Assembly (NCBI GenBank): GCA_025355875.1
Contig: JANXYV010000032.1
Location: forward strand, 1-40,173
Source: Prolixibacteraceae bacterium
GTDB taxonomy: Bacteria; Bacteroidota; Bacteroidia; Bacteroidales; Prolixibacteraceae
Reading direction: 5' to 3'
Length of the DNA: 40,173 nucleotides
The notes beneath the pieces were generated by a model. That model made no database searches. It was not told where the DNA came from and saw nothing but the letters and a program-made list of their open reading frames with translations. Position numbers and translations under genes: made by a program. Shown in pieces: positions 1,575 through 4,553 of this stretch. Numbering within the stretch: the first letter of the stretch is position 1; the number at the start of each line of letters is the position of its first letter.

Positions 1575-2246
1575 ATTACCCGGCCAATCTTTACGATCTT
1601 TTACCAATCCAGCCGATACCGGGTTATTCAGGGTATATTCAATGGCATAATACAAGTGTTTTTCATCCCGGATGGTGGTATCGAAACTCTCCTTTTGCCA
1701 TAAAGTTCCTGTTCTTCCTTCAGCCTTATTAATCCGGTTGGCTGTGTGCCTTTTCACCGACTGCAAGATATCCTGCAAATAAACCGGGGTACCATCTTCG
1801 TCTTTTTCCAGCAACTGAAAAACCCAGTGAACATGGTTCGGCATGATTGAAAAGGCGTGGTTCGAAAGCTTTTTTCCTTCCCAAAACTGAATGGCTTCAG
1901 CTATGGTTTTTGTGTTGCCCGGGTTCGATAAATTTACGATTGGATTTCGTTCAGCATCAAGCAAATCGTCGTAAGCTTTGATGTATTTCTTTCGGAGAGA
2001 GTAATATTGCATCTGAAGTTTTTCCAATTGGGGTGACGCGATTTCCAATCGCGTTTTTTTTTCGCGATTAAAAATCGCGTCACCCAAAAACTCCAATTCA
2101 TCGGTATATCGTTTCAGCGCTTTTTTAGGAACAGCATCCTTTAAACACCAGGTTACAAAATACGCCTGACCAGGTTGTTGGAAATGAGGTAAAGCGTGTT
2201 TGTATGATTCTTTCTTTTCCAAGGGACTCGTAGTTTTTAACAGCAA
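1557..2246 (-). CDS. REP-associated tyrosine transposase (RAYT, IS200/Y1_Tnp superfamily), carrying an in-frame REP insertion
   Basis: This protein of about 229 residues resembles RAYT enzymes. It has an N-terminal HFQQPGQAYFVTWCLKDAVP block, the HUH metal-binding motif NHVH in SIMPNHVHWVF, and a candidate catalytic tyrosine in the YYAIEYTLNNPVSAGL segment. Such enzymes cut and join single-stranded DNA at REP hairpins. Unusually, a 55-bp REP (2031-2085) lies inside the gene without breaking the frame and is translated as GDAIFNREKKTRLEIASP. The stop codon also comes from a REP. No ATG is available at the N-terminus. The likely start is TTG at 2246, because an in-frame stop lies at 2274-2276 inside another REP. 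Activity is therefore uncertain, although the catalytic motifs are intact. Confidence 0.85.
   Translation of the reverse strand: MLLKTTSPLEKKESYKHALPHFQQPGQAYFVTWCLKDAVPKKALKRYTDELEFLGDAIFNREKKTRLEIASPQLEKLQMQYYSLRKKYIKAYDDLLDAERNPIVNLSNPGNTKTIAEAIQFWEGKKLSNHAFSIMPNHVHWVFQLLEKDEDGTPVYLQDILQSVKRHTANRINKAEGRTGTLWQKESFDTTIRDEKHLYYAIEYTLNNPVSAGLVKDRKDWPGNGCGDF
2031..2085. repeat. REP element inside the RAYT coding sequence
   Basis: This 55-bp unit has symmetrical ends, GGGTGACGCGATT and its inverse, separated by a run of nine T. It lies inside the RAYT gene at a point between the conserved N-terminal block and the LEKLQMQYYSLRKKY helix. It is open in the RAYT reading frame and adds about 18 residues. 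Confidence 0.9.
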
Positions 2247-2603: not shown

Positions 2604-4553
2604 ATGATCAAATCATTTGTAATCGTACTCTTTGTCTTCTTTTCGATCATTGTTTCAGCGCAAAAGAAGAATGATATTGTGGTAAACATTGGCGATGTGC
2701 CGGTTAGCAAAGAAGAATTTGAAGCCAATTACAAAAAGAACAATACCAATATCCTGGATGAAAAAGACAAAAAAACGCCAGCCCAATACATGGATTTGTA
2801 TGTCAATTTTAAGTTAAAAGTGATTGAAGCTCAAAAACTTGGATATGATACAGCCAAGGCGTTTGTTACTGAATTGAAAGGTTACCGTCAGGAACTTGCC
2901 AAACCCTACCTGACCAATACAACCTATAACGAAGAGATGGTCAAAAATGCCTATTACCGTACTTTGCATGAACGGAAAGTCAGTCATATCCTGATTAAGG
3001 TTACCCCTGACGCATCTCCGGCTGATACCCTTGCAGCATGGAATAAAGTTACTGAACTTCGCAAGCAAGTCATAGCCAGTGCCGATTTCAACGAGACTGC
3101 CATTAAAAATTCAGAAGATCCTACTGCAGCCGAGAACAAAGGTGAGATTGGGTATTTCAGCGCCTTTCAGATGGTTTTTCCATTCGAAGATATAGCTTAC
3201 AAAACACCTGTTGGAGAGGTTTCACAAATTACCCGCACCCGTTTTGGCTACCACCTTATCAAAGTTGAAGATGAACGGCTGAGTCGTGGCGAAATCAAGG
3301 TAGCACACATCATGAAAATGTTCCCGAAACAAGCCAGCGAAGAAACCAAAGCCAATTTGAAACTTGCCGCCGACAGTATCTGGCAGAAATTGACTTCCGG
3401 AGCGGATTTTGCTGAAATGGCAAAGAAGTACTCTGACGATAAAAGAACGGGTTCAACCGGAGGAGTTATGAACTGGTTTTCGCAGACCAATATGGTTCCT
3501 TCTTTCGCTGAAGCTGCTTTTGACCTTAAAAATGACGGAGATTTTTCTCCGGTTATCGGCACTCCTTATGGATGGCATATCATCAAGCGCCTTGAAGTGC
3601 GAATCACTCCGCCTTTTGAGAAGGCCCGTCCTGACCTTGAAGTTAAGATCAAGAACAGTTCAACCATCAGTAAATCGGGTGATGAAGTATTTGCCAAAAA
3701 GTTACGCTCTGAATATAAGATGAGAATTGACGATGCCACCTTCACCAACGTGGTAGAATTGGCTAAGGACACTATCGGGAAGAAAAATGTAAAAACTGCG
3801 CTGGAACCGGCAAAGAGCAGTCCTTTAGTTACTTTTGCCGATCAAACGGTATCTGCCGGCGATTTTGCAGAATATCTTCTAAGTGAGAAATATATGCAGG
3901 GAAGGGGAAATCAGGCCTTTAAGTTAAAACCATACCTCGAAAAGTTCATCAATCTGAAATTACTGGAATACGAAAATTCCCAACTGGAAAGGAAATATCC
4001 TGATTTTGCCCGGGTTTACAAGGAATATCATGATGGCATCCTGCTTTTCAACATTTCGAAGGATAAAATCTGGGACGTTGCCTCATCCGATACAGCGCGT
4101 CTGCAAAAATACTATGATCAAACAACCAAAAAATATTTCTGGAACGACCGTTTTATCGGTTGGGTGATTGAAGCCAAAAATGCGGATTTACGGACCAAAG
4201 TTGAATCCATGCTCGATGGGAAAGAAATGAGCAAAAAGGAAATCACCGATTTTTTCAATACCAAAACTGAAAATAATGTTCAAATCACCGAAGTGGCAGT
4301 CGAAAAGGGAGACAATCCGGTGGTGGATTATTATACCTGGAGCGGACCTAAACCTGCCGCATTTGATGAAACGACTACCTTTGTTCACGGTAAAATTGTG
4401 AGTCATCAGCAGAAAACACTCAAAGATGCGTGGGGACTGTACTCTTCCGACTTTCAGGAACAAGTTGAAAAAGAATGGATTGCCTCTTTAAAAGCAAAAT
4501 ATCCGGTTACAATTCATAAAAAAGTGCTTAAAAAAATTCAGTCTATTGAATGA
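2604..4553 (+). CDS. Periplasmic peptidyl-prolyl isomerase with two parvulin (PpiC) domains
   Basis: The protein has a signal peptide (MIKSFVIVLFVFFSIIVSAQ), a SurA-type N-terminal chaperone region, then two parvulin domains. The first spans roughly residues 120-225 and starts at KVSHILIKV. The second spans roughly 230-335, starts at IKVAHIMKMF and ends FGYHL/YGWHI-like. The C-terminal 300 residues are less conserved. Parvulins speed cis-trans isomerisation of prolyl bonds, and this type assists outer-membrane protein folding in the periplasm. I chose ATG 2604 because it places the signal peptide at the N-terminus. An upstream in-frame ATG at 2559 would add 15 residues. The stop overlaps the next gene (ATGA), so the two are translationally coupled. 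It is the first gene of an envelope-biogenesis operon running to 9831. Confidence 0.88.
   Translation: MIKSFVIVLFVFFSIIVSAQKKNDIVVNIGDVPVSKEEFEANYKKNNTNILDEKDKKTPAQYMDLYVNFKLKVIEAQKLGYDTAKAFVTELKGYRQELAKPYLTNTTYNEEMVKNAYYRTLHERKVSHILIKVTPDASPADTLAAWNKVTELRKQVIASADFNETAIKNSEDPTAAENKGEIGYFSAFQMVFPFEDIAYKTPVGEVSQITRTRFGYHLIKVEDERLSRGEIKVAHIMKMFPKQASEETKANLKLAADSIWQKLTSGADFAEMAKKYSDDKRTGSTGGVMNWFSQTNMVPSFAEAAFDLKNDGDFSPVIGTPYGWHIIKRLEVRITPPFEKARPDLEVKIKNSSTISKSGDEVFAKKLRSEYKMRIDDATFTNVVELAKDTIGKKNVKTALEPAKSSPLVTFADQTVSAGDFAEYLLSEKYMQGRGNQAFKLKPYLEKFINLKLLEYENSQLERKYPDFARVYKEYHDGILLFNISKDKIWDVASSDTARLQKYYDQTTKKYFWNDRFIGWVIEAKNADLRTKVESMLDGKEMSKKEITDFFNTKTENNVQITEVAVEKGDNPVVDYYTWSGPKPAAFDETTTFVHGKIVSHQQKTLKDAWGLYSSDFQEQVEKEWIASLKAKYPVTIHKKVLKKIQSIE

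Follow-up and report, generated by a model that had tools for sequence, protein, structure and literature searches.

The gene of a REP-associated tyrosine transposase (RAYT) in a Prolixibacteraceae genome carries an inverted pair of REPs (REPIN) which is translated as part of the transposase. REP units recur in the same linker in about a third of the homologues surveyed, mostly in frame and mostly similar to the REPs that flank the respective gene. We consider it probable that REPs land in and near their own RAYT gene and that selection spares those which come to lie in one tolerant turn of the protein. The whole stretch of DNA that was analysed, 40,173 nucleotides in length and representing an entire contig (C68), is referred to as the window.

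The RAYT gene of the window and its REPIN

The RAYT is encoded by an ORF of 229 aa on the minus strand (1557-2246). The protein scores 83.5 bits against the NCBIfam profile NF047646 (cut-off 80) and 19.4 against Pfam Y1_Tnp, which is under the cut-off of 23. The TnpAREP protein of E. coli (PDB 4ER8) is its top match by structure as well as by sequence, with an E value of 7e-6 for the profile match, which covers only the part from profile position 116 on, and of 3.6e-8 for the fold in Foldseek, where the structural alignment has an identity of 16%. No second RAYT could be identified in the own genome at E <= 0.001, the window protein being the sole match; the gene is single-copy and flanked by REPs. 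The initial annotation described the HUH and tyrosine motifs as intact, and this holds, as H138 and H140 of the HUH motif (H138-V139-H140, 1827-1835, minus strand) and the presumed single catalytic tyrosine Y204 (1635-1637, minus strand) are invariant in 48 aligned homologues. The ORF reads through the REPIN and contains neither a stop nor a frameshift, and the possibility of a dead gene was therefore rejected.

The REPIN (2031-2085) comprises 55 bp and encodes residues 55-72 of the RAYT (GDAIFNREKKTRLEIASP). The whole pair lies inside the ORF and is open in its frame, as had been annotated. It consists of a first REP unit in RAYT sense (2063-2085, minus strand) and a second one with its head on the plus strand (2031-2053); the arms (2028-2053 and 2063-2088) are 88% complementary and 9 nt apart. 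A pattern search revealed further REP units upstream of the gene at 2262-2360 (2262-2283, plus; 2339-2360, minus), at and beyond its 3′ end at 1479-1574 (1479-1500, plus; 1520-1541, plus; 1553-1574, minus) and in a further cluster at 39-154 (39-60, plus; 73-94, minus; 95-117, plus; 132-154, minus). The previously noted match between the 55-bp unit and the neighboring REPs could be confirmed, the sequences being near-identical. In the genome (5.18 Mb) the REP pattern is matched exactly at 15 places, 11 of them at 39-2360 of the window and four at 11228-11584 of contig C219; for the number of REP units this is a lower bound, as units deviating from the pattern, for example at 2298-2334, are missed. 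The reversed pattern has no exact match in this genome. As a control it gave one match for a narrower REP pattern with one mismatch allowed, and seven matches in four genomes when all 140 genomes of the family were searched. The neighboring REPs are real, and the REP family is local and not dispersed in this genome. Its members are built like REPs and REPINs in general, with a short palindrome, a conserved head and inverted pairs; the high copy number and the dispersed, extragenic location of such families are not found, as there are two loci in 5.18 Mb and the window copy is intragenic.

The four matches on contig C219 (L058) represent the only other pattern-matched REP cluster of the genome and lie, judged by eye, at the 5′ end of a RecQ helicase-like ORF. 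The longest reading of that ORF spans one REPIN and includes a peptide of the form GAADSDP..KIATP as in RAYT linkers, the true start being probably located downstream. Genome G019 contains 27 matches of the GGGTG-type REP pattern, which are mostly dispersed, although the units beside the RAYT gene found in it (L008/L114) are of the GGGAC and GGGAA types. A different kind of repeat was observed at 1237-1272 of the window, where three 12-nt units in tandem (AATGACACTGTA) lie in frame in a Fic-family gene (454-1431) and encode NDTVNDTVNDTV.

In the AlphaFold2 model of the window protein (mean pLDDT 88.2) two long helices are predicted for residues 45-65 and 72-98 (1953-2114, minus strand), and the REP-coded stretch covers the final part of the first helix and the interruption that follows it before the second, with a mean pLDDT of 71 for residues 61-70. 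In the model of a relative with a plain linker, predicted helices at residues 33-55 and 60-87 flank the same site. It would be natural to read the two helices as packing into a hairpin.

Position, frame and recurrence of REPs in the linker

Sequence searches matched 10 of the 23 genomes of the genus and 49 of the 140 genomes of the family, the latter number including the genus. The named relatives of the window RAYT belong mainly to Prolixibacteraceae and to other Bacteroidota; from the scan of named genomes the best 80 of 104 relatives were kept, of which 64 (L061-L124) were used and the 16 more distant ones left out. Linker extraction started from 124 stretches, 122 with a match; with 11 incomplete stretches set aside and duplicates merged (L070 included) 69 remained, and without six distant loci (L009, L011, L054, L055, L123, L124) 63 distinct RAYT loci.

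The linker, which is the stretch between the two predicted helices, contains recognizable REP units in 23 of these 63 homologues, is expanded without an intact unit in nine and is plain in 31. Plain linkers have a length of 87 or 90 nt (29-30 codons) in 30 of the 31 loci, where the difference between 87 and 90 nt tracks the query chosen to set the linker anchors; the exception is L116 with 78 nt. The linkers of the other 32 loci range from 93 to 322 nt, except for L097 with 57 nt. Several of the nine expanded unit-free linkers, among them L065 and L080, appear by eye to be decayed REPs. Included in the nine is L109 from a Paludibacter genome, where the same linker is broken by another palindromic element (3126-3300), by eye of the CCCCCTGAAGGGGG type and with stops. 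In L118, which represents the same gene as L046, REP-derived coding sequence is expanded tandemly and in frame, giving GVGVSNSNNPQ-type repeats of about 36 nt each. The sister loci L069 and L085 differ in having one and two REPIN-like copies, respectively, and the extra 75 nt are in frame.

The REPIN had been annotated as adding 18 residues between two conserved blocks. The segment is indeed not carried by all homologues, and those free of REPs have other residues at its place. A clean insertion of 18 aa had to be rejected, since the 55-bp unit alone cannot insert in frame (55 is 1 modulo 3) and a plain linker comprises 87-90 nt. The window linker has 96 nt (32 codons), 55 nt of which are REPIN, and if its ancestor is assumed to have had 87 nt, about 41 nt of it are left. 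The REPIN therefore appears, from these lengths, to be a replacement of about 46 nt with a net gain of about three aa rather than a simple insertion.

REP units are unevenly distributed along the 63 loci surveyed. Their density is 5.59 units per kb in the linker (45 units from 23 loci, at least one of them an overlap artefact in L061) and, up to 400 nt away from the gene, 4.70 (222 units, 58 of 63 loci). Beyond that distance it is 0.17 (48 units), and inside the gene, with the linker excepted, 0.18 (6 units over 32.6 kb, four loci). In REP density the linker thus resembles the non-coding DNA close by. At the 3′ end of the gene the density is 3.39 (16 units). Three of the six interior units belong to L112 and one, in L097, is located near the linker, while those of L063 and L093 are chance-like. 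Shuffled linkers gave 0.5 units per set in comparison to 46 in the real set. A reversed-sequence control, with 17 named loci left out, yielded 9, 2 and 46 units in linker, rest of the gene and flank, against 45, 10 and 171 real ones, and is not clean because reversal preserves palindromes.

The linker units resemble those of their own locus. Their similarity is 0.74 to units of the own flanks (within 1.5 kb) and 0.37 to those of other loci, and in 20,000 permutations the sum never became as high as the observed one. The own flank ranked first in 12 of the 23 loci and within the top four in 20. An identical unit is common to linker and own flank in 6 of the 23 loci, in comparison to 5 of 506 pairs with the flanks of other loci. 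Linker heads other than GGGTG occur in 11 loci, eight of which have a five-base head in common with their own flank. Against a local origin, the linker REPs of three of the 23 loci (L064, L005 and L067) fail to match their near flanks and rank 20, 16 and 16 of 23. The orientation of the REPIN agrees between linker and flank in all seven scored linker REPINs from six loci, the value for the window being marginal (1.26 versus 1.17), and between upstream and downstream flank in all eight pairs counted, which were those with scores more than 0.2 apart. The linker pair of L061 failed the pair filter and was left unscored; by eye it appears to be reversed.

The length of the REP linkers is divisible by three in 21 of the 23 loci (exceptions L099 and L106), and 19 of them keep the frame and are free of stops, L063 and L103 being excluded as well. 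Over the whole matched gene, stops or frameshifts were found in 6 of the 23 loci with REP linkers (five without L061, whose stop precedes a start), in 2 of the 9 with expanded unit-free linkers and in 3 of the 31 with plain ones, in one of them (L101) near the C terminus.

The initial annotation further suggested that the repeat is pre-adapted to translation in this frame. The lengths of 44 flank REPINs beside 33 RAYT genes are distributed as 13, 14 and 17 over the classes 0, 1 and 2 modulo 3, and those of 11 linker REPINs as 2, 6 and 3. Of the 44 flank REPINs, 20 lack stops in the sense phase in which the window copy is read (18-21 for any single sense phase), at least one sense phase is open in 38, and one antisense phase is open in 31; in the window REPIN two of the three phases are open. 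REPINs are thus fairly easily translated without any special frame, and a particular fitness of the repeat for the RAYT frame was rejected, as there is no preference for a length class and the sense phases are alike. REPINs are often translatable, but we regard the frame of the linker REPIN as the likely outcome of selection acting on the gene.

Origin of the linker REPs

According to the reading we prefer, the RAYT would keep inserting or exchanging its cognate REPs within and close to its own locus. Landings elsewhere in the gene would be purged by selection, whereas those in the turn between the predicted helices (residues 45-65 and 72-98), ahead of the HUH motif, would be tolerated if the frame is kept and no stop is introduced. 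Over time the linker would be overwritten by REP DNA and would grow, shrink and decay like the adjacent non-coding DNA, its peptide being mostly polar. We infer that it was this RAYT that moved the REPs, that insertion and not recombination placed the REPIN, that REPs elsewhere in the gene were lost through selection and that the linker peptide is neutral.

On a tree calculated without the linker the label plain or expanded needs 12 changes, in comparison to 11-12 on bootstrap trees and 21.3 for shuffled labels; the 63 rows of this tree are 61 of the 63 loci (without L106 and L109) together with L123 and L124. The well-supported branches alone force only two changes; the backbone of the tree is weak and its bootstrap unsettled. 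Repeated gain is probably to be favored over loss because of the near-constant length of the plain linkers.

The preferred reading is weakened by the codon phase, which is the same in 13 of 21 forward units; 14 of 24 reverse units have another one in common. The common forward phase encodes small polar residues of the GAADSDP type. Such sharing of phases could be due to common ancestry, to a preferred site or to selection acting on the peptide. A rival reading is a single old insertion that was inherited vertically, stayed similar to the flanking REPs through gene conversion and was lost in some lineages. The prevailing forward phase, the junctions common to the window and L061 and the weak backbone of the tree are in line with such a history, which we nevertheless regard as unlikely, since other phases are found in L069, L085, L074 and L114, the best tree needs 12 changes and the uniform length of the plain linkers, 30 of 31 of which have 87 or 90 nt, would be hard to regain after a loss.

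Alternatively, the turn could be an evolved safe harbor, a target in the own coding sequence which receives cognate REPs in frame. We assign only a low probability to this possibility. If it were true, the RAYT gene would stay physically linked to a matching master copy of the substrate and co-evolve with it, and the peptide would possibly tune protein contacts or the activity of the transposase.

An autoregulatory function of the internal REPIN is very doubtful. In this case the level of the transposase would be limited by binding of the RAYT to the hairpin of its own gene or mRNA or by a slower translation across the hairpin. The RNA of 2022-2094 is predicted to form a very stable hairpin (-39.9 kcal/mol versus -16.3 for shuffles, z -7.7), the linker REPs are of the cognate type, and according to a passage in PMC3733652 the expression of RAYTs may be down-regulated by REP hairpins in the way observed for IS200 transposases. 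However, 31 of the 63 homologues have plain linkers and nine expanded ones without an intact unit, and a unit is present within 400 nt in 58 of the 63 loci anyway. Moreover, the fold does not separate an intact linker (L062, z -2.1) from a decayed one (L065, z -2.6), the compared lengths being unequal.

That a palindromic coding stretch merely resembles REPs by chance can practically be dismissed in view of the near-identity to the flanking REPs, the lack of reversed-pattern matches in this genome and the recurrence of REP units, which 23 of the 63 homologues carry.

If REPs do land around their own RAYT gene and are spared in one turn, as we prefer to think, the linker would be a natural record of REP insertion, in which a single protein turn in many related genomes displays the REPs of its own transposase. 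It could reveal which REP each RAYT recognizes, at what rate REPs are replaced in the vicinity of the gene and which peptides a mobile palindrome can become. It also calls for caution, as hypervariable linkers of RAYT proteins can be repeat DNA and not a conserved function.

Relation to known intragenic REPs

The likeness to Rickettsia palindromic elements (RPEs) that had been pointed out before is a partial one. RPEs are, as described in PMC3733652, palindromic repeats held in frame in proteins, and an in-frame palindrome in an unbroken gene is found here as well. In contrast to RPEs, which occur across many unrelated genes, the coding copies found here are in RAYT genes, and an RPE-like spread into proteins at large is not supported. 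Of 44 REP elements off the RAYT, located in 40 stretches of six related genomes which were picked among the pattern matches listed for these genomes, three lie inside an ORF of at least 100 aa, five cross the edge of one and the remaining 36 are outside. None of the three ORFs gave a Pfam hit. A general spread of REPs into proteins was rejected on these grounds.

REPs and REP dimers inside genes were described for the GTAG and CGTC families by Di Nocera et al. (2013, PMC3733652), dimers or groups of which code for 20-30 aa. The section of that paper on these elements places them in uvrA, recB, DnaE2 and other genes and does not name RAYT genes. The heads of the window-type REPs are GGGTG and variants, in contrast to the GTAG and CGTC types treated there; both linker units of the window start with GGGTGA and some of the flank units with GGGTGG, the REP foot of TnpAREP subclass 2.4 being GT[AG]G.

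The closest known case is that subclass, which corresponds to RAYT group 4 of Bertels and is described in the sections on it in Quentin et al. (2018, PMC6006769) as abundant in Cyanobacteria and Bacteroidetes. According to these sections, in-frame REPs of variable length inside the own RAYT gene are a unique feature of subclass 2.4 and are generally found between HuH and Y on a peripheral extension. Common to both is that REPs lie within the RAYT gene itself and leave its frame undisturbed. The window-type inserts differ, as far as those sections go, in lying ahead of HuH, where they separate two long helices. For subclass 2.4 a small insertion of 8 aa at the end of alphaB is also reported there, which may be nearer to the window site. 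A variable insert between HUH and Y was not observed in 17 aligned proteins including that of the window, where this region has no gap. L112, which is outside this alignment, is the only one of the 63 loci with REPs at both places; besides the REP in the linker ahead of HUH it carries a second in-frame group of three REP units between HUH and Tyr (3463-3562). A REP site ahead of HuH was not met in the open-access literature searched or in the sections of PMC6006769 on subclass 2.4. A partial overlap with the supplement of that paper being possible, the present analysis adds to the known intragenic REPs the site ahead of HuH, its recurrence in a RAYT lineage of Bacteroidota, and the tests for the match to cognate flanks and for the rarity of REPs in the gene interior.
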